From: Gammaproteobacteria bacterium
Lineage (GTDB): Bacteria > Pseudomonadota > Gammaproteobacteria > Steroidobacterales > Steroidobacteraceae
Assembly (NCBI GenBank): GCA_027452045.1
Contig: DAIDHH010000027.1
Span: forward strand, 32,317-96,316
Length of the DNA stretch: 64,000 bases
Direction of reading: 5' to 3'
The position numbers and the translations under genes were made by a program. Under the pieces are notes generated by a model that saw nothing but the letters and a program-made list of their open reading frames with translations, was not told where the DNA came from and did not search any database. This document shows positions 12,499 through 37,206 of the stretch, piece by piece; the stretch's first letter is position 1, and the number at the start of each line of letters is the position of its first letter.

Positions 12499-12557
12499 GC
12501 GCCATTTTGGTGCGGCCTGGGCGGCGCATGCACTCAAATAGTGCACAATGCTGTGCA
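12499..12557. promoter_or_regulatory. Tandem NtrC-type enhancer sites upstream of glnA
   Basis: Two sequences match the NtrC palindrome GCAC-N7-GTGC. GCGCCATTTTGGTGC (12499-12513) has one mismatch and TGCACTCAAATAGTGCA (12529-12545) is perfectly symmetric. Their centres are 31 bases apart, about three helical turns, and lie near -117 and -86 of the predicted sigma-54 start. A third palindrome, TGCACAATGCTGTGCA (12542-12557), overlaps the second but has a spacer one base short. The arrangement resembles the glnA enhancer of enteric bacteria. Confidence 0.75.
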
Positions 12558-12596
12558 AAACGTGTCTAAGCCATTGATTCAGGACTATTCGTGACT

Positions 12597-12612
12597 TGGC
12601 ACGCGACATGCA
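12597..12612 (+). promoter_or_regulatory. Sigma-54 promoter of glnA
   Basis: TGGCACGCGACATGCA fits TGGCAC-N5-TTGCA with a single mismatch and correct -24/-12 spacing. Transcription would start near 12623, giving a leader of about 118 bases before the glnA ATG. The rest of the 405-base glyQ-glnA gap holds the NtrC sites; no obvious sigma-70 promoter was recognised for either gene. Confidence 0.8.
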
Positions 12613-24016: not shown

Positions 24017-26662
24017 TCAGGCGCTCGCCGCTCCCGCGAGCAACGCCCGGATCTCCGGCAGGCAGGAGCCGCAGTTGGTGCCGGCCTGCAGCCGCGCGCC
24101 CACCTGACGGGTATCCGTCAGTCCTTCGCCTTCAATCACCCGGCACAGCGTATTGCGTCCAACTCGAAAGCATGAGCAGACGATGGCGCCTTCGTCGTCC
24201 GTCGCGCGCAGCGGTCGGCCAGCCAGCAGCGCGATGCGATCGGCAGACTCCAGCCGCTCCTTGGCGAACATCGAGGCGAGCCAGCCTCGCGCGGGAAGTT
24301 CCGGCCGCCGGCAGAAGTATGCGCAGGCATCCAGACGCCCATCGTGCGTATGCGCGGCACGATAAATCCCGGAGGCGGCGTCGGAGTACTCGAGGTAGTC
24401 CGCATCGGCCGTCAGCCCGCCGAGCAGCAGCCTGACCCAGTGCGCTCCCGGGGACGTCTTGCGCCCCGCCAGCTCGTAACGCAGAAATCCCGCGCCGCGA
24501 ACCAGGGCCCACCATGTGATCTCATCGGTCCGCAGCGGTTGGCGCGTGAAGACTACGCCATACCAGTCCACCGGAAAGGGTTGAACGTTCGCGGGCGTAT
24601 GCTTGAACTCCGGCTCGCCTGAGAGCGGGTCCACCGCCGGATTGACCAGCGCCCCGACGCGGGCCTCGGAGGCGTAGGCATCGCTCCAATGCATGGGCAC
24701 GAACATCGTGCCGCGGGCGATTTCTCCGCTCACCCTCACCCGTGCCACCAACGAGCCCCACCGCGTCGACACCGTAGCCAACTCACCCTCGCGCACCGAC
24801 GCCAACAGGGCGTCGTGGGCGTGCAGGTCGACGAAGGGCTCCGGCAAATGCTCCGTCAACCGTTGAGCACGTCCCGTGCGTGTCATCGTGTGCCATTGGT
24901 CGCGGATGCGACCGGTGTTGAGCACAAGCGGATAGTCCTCGTCCGGCGCGTTGGCCGGAGGCCTGAAATGCACGGGAACCAGTCGTGCCCGGCCGTCCGG
25001 ATGGGCGAATCGAGCATCCCGGAACAATCGCGCCTCAGCTCTTCCCCGACCAGGCACGGGCCATTGAACGGGCTCCAGCTCATCGTACTCGGCCTGCGTG
25101 AGAGCGCAGAGACCGGAGATGTCGAAGAACCCCCCGAGCCCGGCAGCCACGGCAGACAGCCGGGCATGCTCGTCGAAAATCTCGCGCGGCGACTCATATC
25201 GAAAGGCGTCGCCGAAGCCCATGCGCCGTGCCACTTCGCTCACCATCCACCAATCGGGCGATGCCTCGCCCGGAGCGTCCAGAAAACGTCTCTGCCGGGA
25301 GATGCGTCGCTCCGAATTGGTGACGGTGCCGTCCTTCTCGCCCCAGGTCATGGCCGGCAGTAACACGTGCGCCAGCGCCGCCGTATCCGTGTCGTGCACG
25401 CAATCGGATACCACGACCCACTCGCAGCGCCCGAGCGCCTCGCGTACGCGAGTGGCATCCGGCAGGCTCACCGCCGGGTTGGTCGCCATGATCCACACGG
25501 CCTTGATGCGCCCGGCACGCATGGCCTCGAACAGCTCCACCGCCTTCAGGCCGGGGCGGGTGGCGATGCGCGGGCTGCCCCAGAATGTCTGCACCGCGGC
25601 GCGATGGTCGGCGGATTCCAGGCCCAGGTGCGCTGCCAGCGTATTCGCCAATCCGCCCACCTCGCGTCCGCCCATGGCATTCGGTTGTCCCGTCAGGGAG
25701 AACGGTCCCATCCCTGGCCGCCCGATACGTCCGGTCAGCAAATGACAATTGAGGATGCCGTTGACCTTGTCGGTCCCGGAGGTCGACTGGTTGATGCCCT
25801 GGGAAAAGACTGTCACGACCCGCTCCGTGCGGCCAAACAGCTCGAAGAACTCCCCGATCCGCCGCGCGTCTGCGCCGCAGACGCCCGCCACAGCATCCGC
25901 GTCACCGGCCACGAGCGCGGCCCGGATCGCCGCCTCGGCCCCCAGCGTATGCCTCGAGACGAAGTCCTCATCGGTCGCGCCATGACGGTGCAGATGGCCG
26001 AGCAGGCCATTGAAAAGGGCCACGTCGGTGCCCGCCCGGATGGGCAGATGCAGGTCCGCGAGCTCAGCGGTCGCAGTGCGGCGCGGATCGATCACCACCA
26101 GCTTGAGGCCCGCACGGCGCTCCTTTTCCCGCTCGATGCGCCGCCACAGAACCGGATGGCACCACGCGGCGTTGGCGCCGGCGAGCACGATCAGATCGGC
26201 GAGCTCGAGATCCTCATAACATCCCGGGACCAGGTCCCCGCCGAAGGCCCGCCTGTGGCCCGCCACCGCCGAGGCCATGCACAGCCTGGAGTTGGTGTCG
26301 ATGTTGGCGCTGCCGATGAAGCCCTTCATGAGCTTGTTGGCAACGTAATAGTCCTCCGTCAGAAGCTGTCCGGAGACATAGAAGGCCACGGCATCAGGTC
26401 CGTGCTCGCGCACCGCAGCAGCGAACCCCCGCGCCACGACGTCCAACGCTTCTGACCACGGGACCCGGCGTCCATGAACTTGCGGGTACAGCAATCGCCC
26501 CTCGGTGTCCAGGGTCTCGGCGAGCGCGGAGCCCTTGGAGCAGAGGCGCCCGCCATTGGCCGGATGCCGGGCATCGCCCTCGATCTCCCGGCCTCCCGAG
26601 CGGGCAATCACGCCGCACCCCACTCCACAGTAGGGGCAGGTGGTCCGTACCGCCGCCGACAC
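24017..26662 (-). CDS. nasA: Assimilatory nitrate reductase, molybdopterin catalytic subunit
   Basis: The GTG at 26662 starts 4 bases after the upstream stop and gives 881 residues. The N-terminal [4Fe-4S] cluster is CPYCGVGC..GGRLCSKG, followed by the Mo-bis-MGD core (NIDTNSRLCMASA, SQGINQSTSGTDKVN, GRIRDQWHTMTRTGRA). A C-terminal BFD-like [2Fe-2S] domain has CSCFRVGRN and GTNCGSCLPEIR. There is no Tat signal, so it is the cytoplasmic assimilatory enzyme reducing nitrate to nitrite. It ends the operon nirB - NirD/flavoprotein - nasA. Confidence 0.95.
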   Translation of the reverse strand: MSAAVRTTCPYCGVGCGVIARSGGREIEGDARHPANGGRLCSKGSALAETLDTEGRLLYPQVHGRRVPWSEALDVVARGFAAAVREHGPDAVAFYVSGQLLTEDYYVANKLMKGFIGSANIDTNSRLCMASAVAGHRRAFGGDLVPGCYEDLELADLIVLAGANAAWCHPVLWRRIEREKERRAGLKLVVIDPRRTATAELADLHLPIRAGTDVALFNGLLGHLHRHGATDEDFVSRHTLGAEAAIRAALVAGDADAVAGVCGADARRIGEFFELFGRTERVVTVFSQGINQSTSGTDKVNGILNCHLLTGRIGRPGMGPFSLTGQPNAMGGREVGGLANTLAAHLGLESADHRAAVQTFWGSPRIATRPGLKAVELFEAMRAGRIKAVWIMATNPAVSLPDATRVREALGRCEWVVVSDCVHDTDTAALAHVLLPAMTWGEKDGTVTNSERRISRQRRFLDAPGEASPDWWMVSEVARRMGFGDAFRYESPREIFDEHARLSAVAAGLGGFFDISGLCALTQAEYDELEPVQWPVPGRGRAEARLFRDARFAHPDGRARLVPVHFRPPANAPDEDYPLVLNTGRIRDQWHTMTRTGRAQRLTEHLPEPFVDLHAHDALLASVREGELATVSTRWGSLVARVRVSGEIARGTMFVPMHWSDAYASEARVGALVNPAVDPLSGEPEFKHTPANVQPFPVDWYGVVFTRQPLRTDEITWWALVRGAGFLRYELAGRKTSPGAHWVRLLLGGLTADADYLEYSDAASGIYRAAHTHDGRLDACAYFCRRPELPARGWLASMFAKERLESADRIALLAGRPLRATDDEGAIVCSCFRVGRNTLCRVIEGEGLTDTRQVGARLQAGTNCGSCLPEIRALLAGAASA

Positions 26663-26666
26663 GCGC

Positions 26667-28232
26667 CTAACCCGCCTGCGCCAGCGCACTGGCCGCATCG
26701 GGCCCGAACAGCAGCGCCTCGCGCAGCGAACCGACGTCGGTGCCGCGGGACATCAGCTCGAAATACCACGGCCCGTGCCGGATATCCCCGTAGAGCACCA
26801 CGCCCGTCAACCGGTGGTCGCGGAGCATCAGCCGCTTGTAGATGCCCTGGCGAGGATCGCTCAGCACCAGCGGTTCCCCTCCGTCTGCGCCGAGGAAATC
26901 CCCCGCCGAGTACATCTCGATACCGGTGACCTTGAGCTGTGTGGCCGTCAGGGTGCCGCGGAAGCGGGAAACCCCGACTTCGGCGAGGTGCGCGGCGCAG
27001 ACTCGTGCCTGATCCCACAGGGGGGCCACCAGGCCGAACAGGTTGTTGCGGTGCTGCACGCACTCGCCGACCGCGTAGACGCTCGGATCGAAGGTCTGCA
27101 GCGTGTCATTGACCAGGATGCCCCGCTCACACCGCAGGCCGGCCCTGGCCGCGAGCTCGGTGTTCGGACGGATGCCTACCGCCATCACGATGAGATCGGC
27201 CTCGAGTTCGCTATCGTCCTCGAATCTCAATCCCCTGGCGCGATCCTCACCGAGTATGAGCACCGTCTTCGCCGGCATGCGGAATTTGAGACTCCGGGAC
27301 TCGAGCGACGCCTTGAGTAGCGCAGCGGCGGCTCCATCGAGCTGACGCTCCATGAGCGCCGGCAGCAGATGAACCACAGTCACGTCCATCCCGCGCCTGG
27401 AGAGCGCATGCGCCGCCTCGAGCCCCAGCAGACCGCCGCCGATGACGGCAGCCTTGCGATACCGCCGCGCCGCCTGCAACATCGTATCGACATCGGCCAG
27501 ATCGCGGAAGGTCACCACACCGGGCAGATCCTTCCCCGGGATCGGCAGCATGAATGGAGTCGACCCGGTCGCCACCAGCAGCCTGTCGTAATGCGACTCC
27601 ACTCCTTTGCTCGAGCGCACCACGCGCCTTCTCCGGTCGATCTCGACCACCGGATCTGCGCAGTGCAGCGTCACATGATGCTCGGCATACCACTCGAGGC
27701 CGTGCAGAACGATGTCCTCGCGGCGCTTCTCGCCCGAGAGCACCGGCGAGAGCAGGATACGGTTGTAATTGACATGCGGCTCGGCGCCGAACACCGTGAC
27801 GTCATAGGCATCCGGCGCCAACCGCAGCAGCTCTTCCACCGTCCTCATGCCTGCCATGCCATTGCCGACGACGACCAGCCGGCGCCGGGTGCGGCGCACG
27901 GACTGCTGCGGCTCGCAACTCACCCACACCCGCCCATCGAGCGCGCGCACCGGGTAGACGTTGACCGACTGCGTCGAATCCTCCAGGCAGCGGCCGGTGG
28001 CGAGGCTGAAGTGATGCTTGTAGAGCGGGGAGGCGACGACCCACTCACCTTTGATGTCCCCGACGATGCCGCGCGAAAGCACGCTGGCACCGCTCGCCGG
28101 ATCGACGTTGTCGAGGGCGAACAGCGAATCGCCGACGCGGAATACGGCGACCTGCCTGCCGTTGACCAGGGCGCACACACCGCTTTGGGGCAGGATGTCA
28201 TCCAGCGCGCACACCGAACTCCAGGTACTCAT
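26667..28232 (-). CDS. NirD-like Rieske-fold domain fused to FAD/NAD(P)H oxidoreductase
   Basis: A 521-residue fusion. Residues 1 to about 105 are a NirD-type Rieske fold (nitrite reductase small subunit) lacking the Cys/His iron ligands, as NirD does. Residues about 118-521 are a flavoprotein like the N-terminal half of NirB, with VVVGNGMAGMRTVEELL, LLVATGSTPF, AVIGGGLLGLEAAHAL and YAVGECVQH. The gene overlaps nirB by ATGA and precedes nasA by 4 bases. It probably supplies NirD function to NirB and passes NAD(P)H electrons to NasA, replacing a separate NasB/NasC. The electron route is inference. Confidence 0.85.
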   Translation of the reverse strand: MSTWSSVCALDDILPQSGVCALVNGRQVAVFRVGDSLFALDNVDPASGASVLSRGIVGDIKGEWVVASPLYKHHFSLATGRCLEDSTQSVNVYPVRALDGRVWVSCEPQQSVRRTRRRLVVVGNGMAGMRTVEELLRLAPDAYDVTVFGAEPHVNYNRILLSPVLSGEKRREDIVLHGLEWYAEHHVTLHCADPVVEIDRRRRVVRSSKGVESHYDRLLVATGSTPFMLPIPGKDLPGVVTFRDLADVDTMLQAARRYRKAAVIGGGLLGLEAAHALSRRGMDVTVVHLLPALMERQLDGAAAALLKASLESRSLKFRMPAKTVLILGEDRARGLRFEDDSELEADLIVMAVGIRPNTELAARAGLRCERGILVNDTLQTFDPSVYAVGECVQHRNNLFGLVAPLWDQARVCAAHLAEVGVSRFRGTLTATQLKVTGIEMYSAGDFLGADGGEPLVLSDPRQGIYKRLMLRDHRLTGVVLYGDIRHGPWYFELMSRGTDVGSLREALLFGPDAASALAQAG

Positions 28233-30763
28233 ACCGCCGCCCTCATGCGCCGGCGCTCCGCGGGCGTCGCCGGACGGATCTGCGAGCGCTCCTTGACGAA
28301 TACCACGTTGTCATCGCCGGCGTCGCTGTTGACGAAATGCCGGAAGCGCCGCCGGACGGAGGGATCCTCCACGGCCTTCTTCCACTCGCACTCGTAAGTG
28401 TCGATGATGCGAGCCATGTCGGCTTCGAGTTCCGTGGCGATGCCGAGCGAGTCTTCGCAGACGACCTGCTTCAGATAGTCGAGCCCTCCTTCGAGACCGT
28501 CGCGCCAGGTCGAGGTGCGCTGCAGGCGGTCCGCCGTGCGGATGTAGAACATGAGGAAGCGGTCGATGTATCGCAGAAGCGTTGGCTTGTCGAGATCGGC
28601 GGCGAGCAGCTCCGCGTGCCGCGGCTTCATGCCGCCATTGCCACACACGTACAGATTCCAACCCCTCTCGGTGGCGATCACGCCCACATCCTTGCCCTGG
28701 GCCTCCGCGCACTCGCGCGCGCAGCCGGAGACGGCGAACTTGAGCTTGTGTGGTGAGCGCAACCCCTTGTAGCGGCTTTCGAGCTCGATCGCGAGGCCCA
28801 CGCTGTCCTGCACCCCATAGCGGCACCACGTGGAGCCCACACAGGACTTCACGGTTCGCACCGCCTTGCCATAGGCGTGGCCGGACTCGAAGCCGGCGGC
28901 AATCAGTTCCTCCCAGATGAGCGGCAGCTCGTGCACCTGCGCGCCGAAGAGGTCGATACGCTGGCCACCGGTGATCTTGGTGTAAAGGCCGTACCTGCGG
29001 GCCACCTCGCCGATGGCGATCAGCTTGTCCGCGGTGATCTCACCTCCCGGGATACGAGGCACCACGGAATAGGTGCCGTCCTTCTGCATGTTCGCGAGAA
29101 AGTAATCGTTGGTGTCCTGGAGCGGTGCGTGGTCGCGCTCGAGCACGAAGCCGTTCCAGCACGAGGCGAGAATCGATGCCACCGCGGGCTTGCAGATATC
29201 GCAGCCGTGTCCCTTGCCGTGTTTCGTGAGCACCGTCTCGAAGCTCTTCAACTCCCCCACGCGCACGAGGTGAAACAACTGTTGACGCGAATACGGGAAG
29301 TGCTCGCAGAGGTGATTGTCGAGCGCCATGCCGCGGCGCTTGAGCTCGGCCGCAAGGAGCTGCTTGACCAGGGGTGCGCAGCCGCCGCACGCGGCGGAGG
29401 CCTGGGTCTGAGCCTTGATCGCCGCCACCGTGGTGCAGCCGGCCTGCACCGCGGCGCAGATCACGCCCTTGGACACATTGTTGCAGGAGCAGATTTGCGC
29501 GGCATCCGGCAGGGCCGCGATCCCCGCCCCGGCGGGGCTGCCGCCGCCCTGGCGCGCCGGCAGGATCAGGTCCTCCGGATGCTCGGGCAGCGGCAAGCGG
29601 TTCAGCAGGGTCTGTAACAGGGTTCCATAGGCGTGCGCCTCGCCGACCAGCACCGCCCCGAGCAGCTGCTTGCACTCGGCGTCGACCACCAGGCGCTTGT
29701 AGACGCCGAGGCGCTCGTCCACGAAGACATAACAGCGAGCGTCCGGGGTGCTCGCGTGCGCATCGCCGATGGAGGCCACATCGACGCCCAGGAGCTTCAG
29801 CTTGGTGCTCGTGTCGGCGCCGGTGAAGGCGGCTTCGCCATATCCGCCGATGTGCTGCGCCGCCACCTCGGCCATCTGGTACCCCGGGGCGAGGAGACCG
29901 AAGATCCGGCCCTGCCACAGGGCACATTCGCCGATGGCGTAGATGTCGGGATCGGAAGTACGGCAGGTGTCATCGATGACGATGCCGCCGCGCGGTCCGA
30001 GCTTGAGTCCGGCCTCGCGGGCCAGCTCGTCGCGGGGCCGGATCCCGGCGGAAAATACGATCAGGTCGGTCTCGAGCTCGTAACCATCGGCGAAGGTCAT
30101 CCGATGGCGCGCGCCCGCCCCACAGGTAATGCCCTGGGTGCTCTTGCCCGTGTGCACGTGGACGCCGAGCGCTTCGATCTTGCGGCGCAGCATGCCGCCA
30201 CCGCCCTCATCCACCTGCAGCGCCATCAGCCGCGGAGCGAGCTCCACCACGTGAGTCTCGAGGCCCAGGTCGCGCAGCGCGCGCGCCGCCTCCAGACCCA
30301 GGAGTCCTCCGCCAACCACCACGCCCACCTTTGCGTCGGCGGCGGCAGCGCGGATGGCCTCGAGATCCTCGAGGGTACGGTAAACGAAGCATCCCGGCCG
30401 GTCGCGCCCCGGGACTGGAGGAACGAAAGGCGCCGAGCCGGTGGCGAGCACCAGCTTCTCATAGGGGATGTCCTCTCCGGCGTCCGTGCGAACCGTGTGG
30501 GCGGATCGATCGATCGCGACGATCCGTTCACCGAGCCGTGCGGTGATGCCATTGGCCGCAAAGAATCTCTCCGGGACGAGATTCAGGTCCGCAGCCGTCT
30601 TGCCGCAGAACAGGGACGAGAGTTGCACCCGGTCGTACGCCGGCCTCGGCTCCTCTCCGATGACCGTCACCGCGAATTCATGCTCCGGCAACCTCTCGAG
30701 GAAGCGTTGACCCACCATGCCATTGCCAACGACGAGGACTTTCGTGCGCGCAGACCCGTTCAT
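28229..30763 (-). CDS. nirB: Assimilatory nitrite reductase large subunit NirB
   Basis: The ATG at 30763 (MNGSARTKVLVVGNGMVGQ) gives 844 residues, the usual length. The FAD/NAD half has VLVVGNGMVGQ and GVVVGGGLLGLEAARAL. Two BFD-type cysteine clusters follow (ICSCNNVSKG..ACGGCAP and HGCDICKP). The siroheme-[4Fe-4S] half has CVGSTWCRYGVQDS and AVSGCARECAEAQGKD. It reduces nitrite to ammonium with NAD(P)H. It is first in its operon, under a sigma-54 promoter and an attenuator-like leader of about 200 bases. Confidence 0.96.
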   Translation of the reverse strand: MNGSARTKVLVVGNGMVGQRFLERLPEHEFAVTVIGEEPRPAYDRVQLSSLFCGKTAADLNLVPERFFAANGITARLGERIVAIDRSAHTVRTDAGEDIPYEKLVLATGSAPFVPPVPGRDRPGCFVYRTLEDLEAIRAAAADAKVGVVVGGGLLGLEAARALRDLGLETHVVELAPRLMALQVDEGGGGMLRRKIEALGVHVHTGKSTQGITCGAGARHRMTFADGYELETDLIVFSAGIRPRDELAREAGLKLGPRGGIVIDDTCRTSDPDIYAIGECALWQGRIFGLLAPGYQMAEVAAQHIGGYGEAAFTGADTSTKLKLLGVDVASIGDAHASTPDARCYVFVDERLGVYKRLVVDAECKQLLGAVLVGEAHAYGTLLQTLLNRLPLPEHPEDLILPARQGGGSPAGAGIAALPDAAQICSCNNVSKGVICAAVQAGCTTVAAIKAQTQASAACGGCAPLVKQLLAAELKRRGMALDNHLCEHFPYSRQQLFHLVRVGELKSFETVLTKHGKGHGCDICKPAVASILASCWNGFVLERDHAPLQDTNDYFLANMQKDGTYSVVPRIPGGEITADKLIAIGEVARRYGLYTKITGGQRIDLFGAQVHELPLIWEELIAAGFESGHAYGKAVRTVKSCVGSTWCRYGVQDSVGLAIELESRYKGLRSPHKLKFAVSGCARECAEAQGKDVGVIATERGWNLYVCGNGGMKPRHAELLAADLDKPTLLRYIDRFLMFYIRTADRLQRTSTWRDGLEGGLDYLKQVVCEDSLGIATELEADMARIIDTYECEWKKAVEDPSVRRRFRHFVNSDAGDDNVVFVKERSQIRPATPAERRRMRAAV

Positions 30764-30875: not shown

Positions 30876-30937
30876 AAAAACGCCGCCCGCCCCGCGAGAT
30901 ACGGAAGAATTCCGTACTGCACGGGAACGGCGGCGTT
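30876..30937 (-). terminator. Attenuator terminator in the nirB leader
   Basis: On the minus strand AACGCCGCC (30937-30929) pairs with GGCGGCGTT (30887-30879), enclosing further GC pairing and an inner TACGGAA/TTCCGTA hairpin, and ends in a run of five T. It lies about 30-90 bases after the predicted start site and well before the nirB ATG, so it would abort transcription unless overcome. NasT, encoded next door, is the expected antiterminator. Confidence 0.75.
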
Positions 30938-30968
30938 GCCAAGCAGACCATCGGGGTCTGCTTGGCAA
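30936..30968 (-). promoter_or_regulatory. Leader hairpin of nirB, candidate NasT target
   Basis: TTGCCAAGCAGACC and GGTCTGCTTGGCAA form a perfect 14-bp stem around a 5-base loop, directly ahead of the attenuator terminator and sharing two bases with it. The predicted start site lies at its 5' edge. Position and strength fit the hairpin that ANTAR proteins recognise, but the loop is not the reported hexaloop with conserved A and G, so the assignment is tentative. Confidence 0.5.
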
Positions 30969-30974
30969 GTGTCT

Positions 30975-30990
30975 AGCAACGGGCGTGCCA
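30975..30990 (-). promoter_or_regulatory. Sigma-54 promoter of nirB operon
   Basis: On the minus strand TGGCACGCCCGTTGCT fits TGGCAC-N5-TTGCW perfectly. Predicted start near 30964. The 511-base gap between nirB and nasT contains this promoter, an opposing sigma-54 promoter, an NtrC-type palindrome and the nirB leader. Confidence 0.82.
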
Positions 30991-31105: not shown

Positions 31106-31121
31106 TGCACTATTGAAGTGC
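31106..31121. promoter_or_regulatory. NtrC-type site between nirB and nasT
   Basis: TGCACTATTGAAGTGC has the GCAC-N7-GTGC core of NtrC sites. It lies about 115 bases upstream of the predicted nasT start and about 150 bases upstream of the nirB start, correct enhancer distance for both. It could serve as a shared enhancer. Confidence 0.6.
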
Positions 31122-31201
31122 GGGATCGCTCCGGCGGCGCGCCGCTCCTTGAGGCCGAATTCCCCGCTACCTGCAGCCGCGCGCCGCCGCCAACGGCGCC
31201 A

Positions 31202-31217
31202 TGGCACGACCGTTGCA
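31202..31217 (+). promoter_or_regulatory. Sigma-54 promoter of nasT-nasS
   Basis: TGGCACGACCGTTGCA is a perfect TGGCAC-N5-TTGCA match, predicting a start near 31228 and a short leader of about 47 bases. No terminator hairpin lies between it and nasT, unlike the nirB and porin leaders. Confidence 0.8.
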
Positions 31218-31274: not shown

Positions 31275-31862
31275 ATGAGTGAGCCGGAGCTGCGCATTGT
31301 GCTCGTGGATCAGAACGTTACGCGGGCCTCGATCCTCGAGGAAGGCCTGCGGGAGGCCGGCTGCACGGAGGTCGTGGTGGTCCGGGACATGCAGAATTTG
31401 CTGCGCCGCATCGTGGACGAGGATCCGGACGTCATATTCATCGACCTGGAAAATCCCAACCGCGACGTGCTCGAGCAGATGTTCCAGGTCTCCCGCTGTG
31501 TGCGCCGGCCGGTGGCGATGTTCGTCGATCACTCCGATACCGCCATGATCCGGGCGGCCGTCGAGGCCGGTGTCGGCGCCTATGTCGTCGATGGACTCAG
31601 GAAGGAGCGCGTCAAGGCAATCCTCGACATGGCGGTGACCCGCTTCAACGCCTTCAGCGAGCTGCGCGAGGAGCTCGACCGCGCCCGGCAGGCGCTCGAT
31701 GAGCGCAAGGTGATCGAGCGCGCCAAGGGGCTGCTCATGAAGCACAAGGGCCTCAGCGAGGAAACCGCATACGGCCTGATGCGCAAGGCGGCGATGAACG
31801 AGGGCAAGCGGATCGTGGAGGTCGCGCGCGCACTGGTGACCGCACTGGATCTTCTGACATGA
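31275..31862 (+). CDS. nasT: ANTAR-domain antiterminator NasT
   Basis: A 195-residue protein with an N-terminal receiver-like domain (RIVLVDQNVTRASILEEGL, VIFIDLENPNRD) and a C-terminal ANTAR RNA-binding domain (ERAKGLLMKHKGLSEETAYGLMRKAAM). NasT binds leader RNA and prevents termination of nitrate-assimilation operons. Without nitrate it is held by NasS, encoded by the next gene through an ATGA overlap. Its own sigma-54 promoter links its synthesis to nitrogen limitation. The expected targets are the attenuated leaders of nirB and the porin gene. Confidence 0.94.
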   Translation: MSEPELRIVLVDQNVTRASILEEGLREAGCTEVVVVRDMQNLLRRIVDEDPDVIFIDLENPNRDVLEQMFQVSRCVRRPVAMFVDHSDTAMIRAAVEAGVGAYVVDGLRKERVKAILDMAVTRFNAFSELREELDRARQALDERKVIERAKGLLMKHKGLSEETAYGLMRKAAMNEGKRIVEVARALVTALDLLT

Positions 31863-33013
31863 GCAAACTGATCATCGGCTTCATCCCGCTCACCGATTGC
31901 GCGCCGCTCGTGGTCGCCGCCGAGCAGGGATTCGCCGCCGAGCAGGGGCTCGAGCTCACCCTCGTGCGCGAGACCTCCTGGGCCAACATCCGCGACCGCA
32001 TCATCGTCGGCCATTTCGACGCGGCGCACATGCTCGGGCCCATGGTCGTGGCCTCGACCCTCGGGATCGGGCACATCAGGGCATCGCTCATCGCTCCTTG
32101 CGCCCTCGGCCTCGGCGGCAATGCGATCACCGTCTCCCTGCCGCTCTGGGAGCGGATGCGCCGCGAGGGCGCTGCGGCCGACAGCCATCCGGCGATTCAC
32201 GGCAGGGCGTTGAAAAGAGTGGTTGAAGCACGCGCGCGTGACGGACTGGCGCCGCTCACCCTGGCCATGGTGTATCCCTTCTCCTGCCACAACTACGAGC
32301 TGCGCTACTGGCTCGCCTCCGCCGCGGTGGATCCCGACCGGGACCTGCGCCTGGTGGTGATACCACCGCCCTTGCTGGTCGATGCCATGCGGACCGGCCA
32401 GATCGACGGTTTCTGCGTCGGTGAGCCGTGGAACAGCGTTGCCGTCGACTGCGGAGTCGGAGCGATCATCACCTCCACCGCGGCGATCTGGCCGCTCAGC
32501 CCGGAGAAGGTTCTCGGATGCCGCGCCCAATGGGCTGCCGACCATCCGCAGGAGCTGGCCGCTCTGATCCGCGCTCTCTACCGGGCCGCTCTGTGGTGCG
32601 AGCGTCCGGAGAATCACGCGCCGCTGGCCGCTCTGCTGGCCGACCCCTGCTATGTGGGTGTCGCGCAGGAACTCATTCTGCGCTCTCTCGACGGGCGGCT
32701 GAAGCTCAATCCCGACTCGCAGGCGGTGCATATCCCGAACTTCTACCTGCCGGCGCGCCGCTCGGCGACCTTTCCATGGGTCAGCCACGCGCAATGGTTC
32801 TACACGCAGATGCTCAGGTGGCGGCAGGTGCAACCCCGCCCGGGGCAGCTGGCCGAGGCCGGCGCCTCGTATCGACCCGACCTGTACCGGCTGGCGCTCG
32901 CGCCGTTGGGCGTCGAAGCGCCTCTGGATGACATCAGGGCCGAGAGGTTTTTCGACGACACGAAATTCGATCCGGTCGACATCGAGAGCCAACTCGGCGA
33001 GCCACGATCATGA
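31859..33013 (+). CDS. nasS: Nitrate sensor NasS (NrtA/CmpA-like, cytoplasmic)
   Basis: A 384-residue periplasmic-binding-protein fold of the NrtA/CmpA family: IIGFIPLTDCAPLVVAAEQGF at the start, GHFDAAHMLGPMVVAST, and IDGFCVGEPWNSVAV. There is no signal peptide or lipobox, which separates NasS sensors from NrtA transport proteins. NasS binds nitrate or nitrite and then releases NasT to antiterminate. The overlap with nasT supports a stoichiometric complex. No NrtB/C permease or ATPase follows, consistent with a sensor rather than a transporter component. Confidence 0.93.
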   Translation: MSKLIIGFIPLTDCAPLVVAAEQGFAAEQGLELTLVRETSWANIRDRIIVGHFDAAHMLGPMVVASTLGIGHIRASLIAPCALGLGGNAITVSLPLWERMRREGAAADSHPAIHGRALKRVVEARARDGLAPLTLAMVYPFSCHNYELRYWLASAAVDPDRDLRLVVIPPPLLVDAMRTGQIDGFCVGEPWNSVAVDCGVGAIITSTAAIWPLSPEKVLGCRAQWAADHPQELAALIRALYRAALWCERPENHAPLAALLADPCYVGVAQELILRSLDGRLKLNPDSQAVHIPNFYLPARRSATFPWVSHAQWFYTQMLRWRQVQPRPGQLAEAGASYRPDLYRLALAPLGVEAPLDDIRAERFFDDTKFDPVDIESQLGEPRS

Positions 33014-33196: not shown

Positions 33197-33212
33197 TGGC
33201 ACAACGCTTGCA
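33197..33212 (+). promoter_or_regulatory. Sigma-54 promoter of the porin gene
   Basis: TGGCACAACGCTTGCA is a perfect consensus match with start predicted near 33223. The 364-base gap upstream of the porin contains this promoter, the leader hairpins and a terminator. A weak, half-matching NtrC-like sequence lies near 33072, too degenerate to call. Confidence 0.82.
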
Positions 33213-33227
33213 CGGAGCTCTTCCGAA

Positions 33228-33296
33228 CTGACCCAACAGAGGGTCAGGAAGCCTGCGATTCAGCTCCGCGCACGCGGAAGGTGATATCCAGGCTTC
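33228..33296 (+). promoter_or_regulatory. Leader hairpins upstream of the porin, candidate NasT target
   Basis: CTGACCC/GGGTCAG form a 7-bp stem with hexaloop AACAGA (33228-33247), starting about 5 bases after the predicted transcript start. A second element follows at once: GAAGCCTG (33248-33255) pairs with CAGGCTTC (33289-33296) and encloses a small TCCGC/GCGGA hairpin. Two tandem stem-loops before a terminator is the known architecture of ANTAR-responsive leaders. Confidence 0.6.
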
Positions 33297-33302
33297 TCAG
33301 CA

Positions 33303-33361
33303 AAGCCGCTGACCGGCGCCCGCAATCCTGCGGCGCGTGCCGGTCCGCGGCTTCTTATTTT
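33303..33361 (+). terminator. Attenuator terminator upstream of the porin
   Basis: AAGCCGC pairs with GCGGCTT, then ACCGGC with GCCGGT, then CCGC with GCGG around AATCCT, and the stem is followed by CTTATTTT. This strong intrinsic terminator ends only 16 bases before the porin start, so it must be overcome for expression. Confidence 0.8.
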
Positions 33362-36345: not shown

Positions 36346-36384
36346 GGCGATGCGAATCCCTGCGCAGTGGGTAATATCTCACCC

Positions 36385-37206
36385 ATGCGCACTCAGCCCC
36401 TTGCCGGCCGCACCATCGCGGTTCCCGAAACCCGGGAGGTGGAGGTTTTCGCCGGGCTGCTCGAGCGGCGCGGGGCGCGGGTCATCCGCTGCCCCATGGT
36501 GGCGATCCGTGACGCACCCGATCCCGCGCCCGTGCTCAACTGGAGCCGGCAAGTCGCCGAGGGCGGTTTCGATGACCTCATCCTGCTCACGGGAGAGGGC
36601 CTGCGGCGCATACTCTCCTGCATCGATCGTCACGAGCCGCTCCTGCGCCCGGCTTTCCTCGACGCCTTGTCCCGAGTCCGCAAGATCACCCGGGGTCCCA
36701 AACCGGCCAAGGTCCTGCGTGAGCTGGGGATGACCTCGGACATTGCGGCCGAGCGGGCCACCACCGACGGCCTGGTCGCGATGCTGCGCACGCATGACCT
36801 GAACGGCCATCGCATCGGCGTACAGCTCTACGGCGACGAGCCCAATCGCCCGCTGGTGGCATTCCTGGAAGGCGCCGGTGCGACGGTGTGCACCGTGGCG
36901 CCGTATGTCTACGCGGATGCAGCGGAGAATCAGGCCGTGCTCGAGCTGCTCGCGCAGCTGCGCTCGGGCGAAGTCGACGCCATCGCCTTCACCAGCTCCA
37001 CCCAGATCGCGCGGTTGATCGCCGTCGCCTCCGAAGACATCGTCCGCGCCGCGCTGGCCCGCACGCTGGTTGCGGCAGTCGGACCGGTCGTCGCCGACAC
37101 ATTGAGCCGCCACGGCATCACCCCTCGGCTCATGCCGGAGGAATCGTTCCATTTGAAGCCGCTCACGGCCGCTCTGGAGGAGGCGCTCGGCGCCTCCTCC
37201 AGCTAA
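36385..37206 (+). CDS. Uroporphyrinogen-III synthase (HemD) family protein
   Basis: The ATG at 36385 gives 273 residues (a GTG six codons earlier is possible). The bilobed HemD pattern is recognisable: LAGRTIAVPETREVEVFAGLLERRGA, then TTDGLVAML near the hinge, then AIAFTSSTQIARLI, VAAVGPVVADTLSRHGI and KPLTAALEEAL. Uroporphyrinogen III is the precursor of siroheme, required by NirB. Copies of this type are often found with nitrate-assimilation genes, so a dedicated siroheme supply is plausible. Whether the genome has a second hemD cannot be seen. Confidence 0.8.
   Translation: MRTQPLAGRTIAVPETREVEVFAGLLERRGARVIRCPMVAIRDAPDPAPVLNWSRQVAEGGFDDLILLTGEGLRRILSCIDRHEPLLRPAFLDALSRVRKITRGPKPAKVLRELGMTSDIAAERATTDGLVAMLRTHDLNGHRIGVQLYGDEPNRPLVAFLEGAGATVCTVAPYVYADAAENQAVLELLAQLRSGEVDAIAFTSSTQIARLIAVASEDIVRAALARTLVAAVGPVVADTLSRHGITPRLMPEESFHLKPLTAALEEALGASSS

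Follow-up and report, generated by a model that had tools for sequence, protein, structure and literature searches.

The analysed DNA, a stretch of 64,000 nucleotides referred to below as the window, carries on its minus strand nirB, a gene for a fusion of a NirD-like Rieske domain with a NirB-like pyridine nucleotide reductase, and a gene for a NasA-like molybdopterin nitrate reductase (Table 1). The fusion is unusual and is kept in relatives; the NasA-like protein stays below the cut-offs of the NCBIfam models for nitrate reductase and formate dehydrogenase. Adjoining nirB and divergent from it are nasT, coding for a receiver-ANTAR protein, and nasS, coding for an NMT1-like protein, and next to nasS follows a gene for an outer-membrane protein that matches Alginate_exp below threshold (here called the porin gene). 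A 203-aa GMC oxidoreductase ORF at 34683-35294 matches its family with the N-terminal domain only and looks truncated. In an alignment of NasT with EutV (6wsh), Arg142, Lys143, Lys149, Glu160, Tyr164, Arg168 and Met172 are kept, and Lys147 is replaced by Arg. The roles of these residues in RNA contact have been described for EutV (PMC8934654), and since the contact residues are kept, the reading head of NasT looks canonical.

Sigma-54 sites with zero mismatches occur only three times in the window, before nirB, before nasT and before the porin gene, and the sigma-54 box is also kept upstream of orthologous nirB genes. Behind the promoter of nasTS no ANTAR leader was found. An NtrC-like dyad, TGCACTATTGAAGTGCG, lies with 1 mismatch at 31106-31122 between the divergent nirB and nasT promoters; because such dyads occur at chance frequency across the window, it can be taken only as suggestive. 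At a distance from these genes (12529-12612), a perfect NtrC-like dyad, TGCACTCAAATAGTGCA, is followed by the sigma-54-like sequence TGGCACGCGACATGCA, which may represent another nitrogen-regulated promoter.

Table 1. Features of the nirB-nasTS region and of the related leaders in the same genome
Feature	Position	Strand	Basis or remark
NasA-like molybdopterin nitrate reductase, C-terminal BFD domain	24017..26698	-	Pfam
NirD-like Rieske domain fused to NirB-like pyridine nucleotide reductase	26667..28232	-	Pfam, NCBIfam
nirB, nitrite reductase large subunit	28229..30763	-	ATG 30763; NCBIfam TIGR02374/NF011565 above cut-off
Terminator U tract, 5 T	30876..30880	-	sequence
Intrinsic terminator stem (predicted)	30881..30937	-	fold, scan; 5' arm AACGCCGCCG common to P2 loop and 3' stem
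P2 hairpin GGC-AACGCC-GCC, canonical A1/G4 hexaloop, 3-bp stem	30929..30940	-	conserved in nirB orthologues
P1 hairpin AAGCAGACC-CCGAU-GGUCUGCUU, 9 bp, 5-nt loop	30941..30963	-	upper part of 14-bp hairpin; sequence, fold
Predicted transcription start	30963	-	from sigma-54 spacing, 12-13 nt past -12 C
Sigma-54 promoter TGGCAC-GCCCG-TTGC (-24/-12), nirB operon	30976..30990	-	perfect consensus match
Sigma-54 promoter of nasTS	31202..31216	+	perfect match; covariance-model partial match
nasT, receiver-ANTAR antiterminator	31275..31862	+	PF03861 E=1e-20; aligns to EutV 6wsh
nasS, NMT1_2 nitrate-sensor protein	31859..33013	+	PF13379 E=2.6e-79
Second sigma-54/ANTAR leader	33197..33361	+	before porin ATG 33378
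Porin leader, promoter	33197-33211	+	
Porin leader, P1	33228-33247	+	loop AACAGA
Porin leader, 49-nt bridging hairpin	33248-33296	+	between P1 and P2
Porin leader, P2 UCAGC-AAAGCC-GCUGA	33297-33312	+	
Porin leader, terminator	to 33353	+	U-rich tail
Third leader (L196)	C16:4321 onward		outside the window; before NarK-like MFS transporter, sub-threshold TIGR00886

Directly downstream of the nirB sigma-54 box, UUGCCAAGCAGACC-CCGAU-GGUCUGCUUGGCAA (30968-30936, minus strand) forms a perfect stem of 14 bp with a loop of 5 nt; among perfect Watson-Crick hairpins with loops of 3-8 nt it is the longest in the window. It is abutted by a GC-rich terminator, also detected by a terminator scan, in which CGCCGCC (30935-30929) pairs with GGCGGCG (30887-30881) at the base and TTTTT follows, all upstream of nirB. 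This anatomy had been recognized in an initial annotation of the same DNA, and both sequence and fold agree with it, down to the overlap of hairpin and terminator by two bases (AA, 30937-30936). The 126-nt leader stretch folds with -69 kcal/mol, compared with -44 for shuffled sequences (z = -6.25; matched by 0 of 200 shuffles), and the terminator folded alone reaches -40.6 kcal/mol. A 29-codon ORF preceded by the Shine-Dalgarno-like GGAGGGG lies after the terminator (30849-30760, minus strand); its stop codon and the start of nirB overlap (ATGA), so that the two may be translationally coupled.

The initial annotation had further placed the hairpin at the 5' end of the transcript, which holds for its upper part, here termed P1. 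Because the sigma-54 spacing puts the transcription start at about 30963, the basal 5 bp of the 14-bp hairpin (30968-30964) are probably untranscribed on the 5' side and thus outside the RNA; the transcribed P1 would therefore comprise 9 bp and leave a second hairpin, P2, free to form. In folding predictions, P1 and P2 indeed form side by side in RNA starting at 30963, and in RNA starting at 30968 the GGC is locked in the full 14-bp stem and P2 is blocked. In most relatives P1 begins at the same offset from the promoter or just after it, and in those with longer spacing up to about 8 nt later.

P2 follows directly after P1, was missed in the initial annotation and is the only A1/G4 hexaloop hairpin in the nirB leader. 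Its loop and 3' strand form the 5' arm of the terminator (30937-30928), as expected for the P2 of an ANTAR leader. When the RNA is folded step by step, P2 appears first and gives way only once the 3' arm of the terminator emerges. Holding P2 by force costs about 15 kcal/mol in these predictions, and a protein would therefore have to hold it. The initial annotation had pointed out a 5-base loop without A1/G4, which is true of the P1 loop CCGAU, and had considered that the recognition rule may differ here; for the decisive hairpin, P2, this suggestion finds no support, as AACGCC in P2 carries A1 and G4 and the EutV contacts are kept in NasT. The hexaloop pattern GGCAANGNCGCC alone is too common to be useful, with 82 sites in the genome against 30 for the reversed pattern, and because the bare P2 12-mer is so frequent in this GC-rich genome, context and conservation have to carry the argument.

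Conservation was assessed in nirB orthologues of the related genomes G031, G039, G005 and G052, picked by NirB protein similarity and not by motif. All four show sigma-54 box, P1, GGC-AACGC(C/A)-GCC, terminator and T run in the same order before nirB; at the corresponding spot of a further orthologue, in G032, the leader is absent. Across 396 genomes of the order, a pattern search yielded 18 matches, compared with 2 for the reversed pattern, and the real pattern matches bring in further nirB leaders (G653, G690 and G768), a narK leader in G005 and a leader of an NrtA-like gene in G653. In leaders identified independently of the P2 pattern, every P2 loop is of the A1/G4 type (AACGCC, AACGCA, AAAGCC, ACUGUC, AGUGCC, AGCGCC and AAUGCC, the last with a weak stem, in a nasA-like leader of G052), and in three of 12 aligned leaders position 6 of the P2 loop covaries with the terminator 3' arm from C-G to U-A. 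Farther afield, a scan of the genome collection with sigma-54 box plus P2 returned 105 stretches, some of them by chance, often before nirB- or nasA-like genes and many of them in Azospirillum, Halomonas, Acinetobacter, Pseudomonas and Variovorax; a loose pattern of sigma-54 box plus ANNGNN was uninformative. Upstream of distant nirB genes (59-68% identity) the design is only partly common: several regions combine a sigma-54-like box with a single A1/G4 hairpin ahead of a T run, and others contain nothing recognisable. In a related genome a similar leader with the P2 loop AGCGCC (L221, G058:C71:20253 onward) precedes an ORF that resembles, by eye, the HemD-like protein encoded at 36367-37206 of the window, which perhaps links sirohaem synthesis to the same control.

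A covariance-model search for the ANTAR leader, as proposed in the initial annotation, placed the nirB leader first in its own genome (34.7 bits, E = 1.2e-7) with a model built from ten relatives from which the window had been left out. Covariance-model searches also revealed at least two more leaders in this genome that are built in the same way, before the porin gene and before a gene for a NarK-like transporter. Two other matches (L194 on C37, L197 on C120) fall within long open reading frames and seem to be chance matches. In both of the further leaders P2 overlaps the terminator, in the transporter leader with the P2 loop ACUGUC, and the orthologous NarK leader in G039, whose protein is 80% identical, has the P2 loop AGUGCC. 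Each of the three leaders contains exactly one A1/G4 hexaloop, which is always P2. The second leader suggests that the NasT regulon includes a porin for nitrate uptake; such a target is unreported in the titles and abstracts of the four publications that matched a literature search for NasT and porins. Neither the window nor ten related loci gave an Rfam match at gathering thresholds. The narK RNA family RF03032, whose consensus combines a sigma-54-like GGCAC...TTGCU with a hairpin carrying the A1/G4 loop AACGGC, is apparently a related motif; the window scores 20.9 bits against its cut-off of 43.2, and the ten loci likewise have no match to it at the cut-off.

P1 lies upstream of P2, as in other ANTAR leaders, and its stem is maintained by covariation: across the 12 leaders 86 of 96 pairs are kept, compared with a mean of 63 and a maximum of 81 in shuffles (0 of 5000 as good), counted on a hand alignment, MAFFT having put the P1 of the window one base off. 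Its loop, CCGAU, is 5 nt long and lacks A1, and because it is no A1/G4 hexaloop, strict dual-hexaloop membership fails; a G is retained as the third base counted from the 3' end, which corresponds to G4 in a hexaloop. The other P1 loops in the genome are AACAGA (porin) and UCAUU (narK). Ten loops from relatives read AAUGGA, GUCGGG, AGCAGU, GCUAGC, AGCAUU, AGCGUC, GUAGCC, GCUGUU, AGCAGC and AGCGAC, with A1/G4 in three and purines at positions 1 and 4 in most; the closest relatives have 6 nt, and apparent P1 loops in Halomonas often have 5 nt with G at position 3. Because P1 loops are relaxed among relatives too, only the rule for P1 may be looser. The loops thus point to a relaxed P1 loop without a new rule taking its place, and P1 at the 5' end of the RNA is most likely a recruitment hairpin with a relaxed loop sequence.

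Reportedly, going by the title of a study by Romeo et al. from 2012, nirBD of Pseudomonas aeruginosa is controlled through a NasT-dependent leader; this would be the same type of target operon as here. In Paracoccus, NasT binds the nasA leader RNA and is freed from NasS by nitrate (PMC3795266), and in Bradyrhizobium it binds the nosR leader (PMC6759348). The leader described here resembles all three in the genes concerned (nitrate assimilation or respiration), NasST, leader hairpins and terminator, but differs from NasT-dependent nas and nir leaders in that its P1 begins at the predicted +1, directly adjoins P2 and carries a loop of 5 nt that lacks A1. The switch between P1, P2 and terminator has been described by Ramesh et al. 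(PMC3369931), by Stewart and van Tilbeurgh (PMC3369936) and in the EutV-RNA structure (PMC8934654). As in the targets of EutV, NasR and AmiR, P1 is followed by an A1/G4-type P2 whose 3' strand lies inside the 5' arm of the terminator; in those targets, however, both loops are A1/G4 hexaloops and a linker of 5-12 nt (Enterococcus faecalis) separates them, whereas here P2 alone is of this type and a linker is absent. For EutV and NasR the A1/G4 hexaloop is needed in both hairpins, and in E. faecalis shortening of the linker to 3 nt reduced induction (PMC3369931). Both points count against an assignment of the present leader to NasT, and so do the low narK score and the blocking of P2 in an RNA that started at 30968.

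Judged by its sequence, the nirB leader is in all features but the P1 loop an ANTAR/NasT leader and a further example of a known switch. The elements are present and conserved, P2 and the terminator are mutually exclusive on paper, nasTS is linked, and two further leaders share the design; we consider it very probable that the leader acts as a NasT/ANTAR-class attenuator of transcription, responds to nitrate and works through a P2-held antitermination mechanism. The NasT-target attenuator proposed initially thus agrees with anatomy, conservation and neighbourhood as far as sequence can tell, apart from the altered recognition rule, which finds no support for P2. Nitrogen limitation would most likely open the sigma-54 promoter, presumably in an NtrC-dependent manner, and a nirB-nirD/nasB-nasA transcript would start at about 30963. 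The nascent RNA would fold P1 and then P2. When NasT is not available, the 3' arm GGCGGCG would, on emerging, unzip P2 and complete the terminator, and the polymerase would be expected to stop at the U tract. By analogy with the known systems, nitrate or nitrite would cause NasS to release NasT, a dimer of which may then bind the leader and hold P2 via its A1/G4 hexaloop; with P2 held, the base of the terminator could not form and nirB would be transcribed.

Within the NasT reading the role of P1 can be seen differently: the leader might be a NasT target in which P1 is not read at all and, as a stem at the 5' end, only protects the RNA or keeps P2 insulated, one canonical hexaloop being enough. 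That P2 is the sole A1/G4 hexaloop in all three leaders of the genome, that the P1 loops differ among these leaders and vary among relatives, and that EutV binds single hexaloops in isolation with similar affinity (PMC8934654) would all fit, yet EutV antitermination needed dual hexaloops (PMC3369931, PMC8934654) and the pairing of the P1 stem is kept. Moreover, exact A1/G4 P1 loops occur in G031, G690 and G653c26 and position 4 is a purine in most other relatives, which suggests residual selection on the loop. We regard an unread P1 as rather unlikely.

The idea behind the initial annotation, that the recognition rule of NasT really differs and the P1 pentaloop is its main target, draws on the 5-nt P1 loop and on the apparent P1 loops of Halomonas, often likewise 5 nt long with G at position 3. 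It is hard to reconcile with a canonical A1/G4 P2 that overlaps the terminator, with the 6-nt P1 loops of the closest relatives and with the hexaloop-reading residues kept in NasT, including the Met172 equivalent, and appears very improbable. A plain attenuator or terminator that functions without NasT, for example a terminator that stops antisense transcription from upstream or a leader switched by another factor, is scarcely credible: the strength of the lone terminator and the ORF with a Shine-Dalgarno-like sequence behind it would be compatible with such an element, but not so the overlap of P2 and terminator, the conservation and the adjacency of nasTS, nor the recurrence of the design before the porin and NarK-like transporter genes.

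With a NasT/ANTAR attenuator as the preferred reading, the nitrate-assimilation operon in a little-studied lineage of gammaproteobacteria would be placed under the combined control of sigma-54 and NasT antitermination, within a small regulon comprising the nirB operon, the porin and the NarK-like transporter. A bolder proposal, possible but doubtful at present, is that NasT antitermination in this Steroidobacteraceae-like lineage needs a single canonical A1/G4 hexaloop, that of P2, with a 5'-terminal P1 that abuts P2 and is free in loop sequence and size, so that the dual-hexaloop rule would fail for these nitrate leaders. The relaxed P1 loops offer a concrete way to test if two hexaloops are required by ANTAR proteins.
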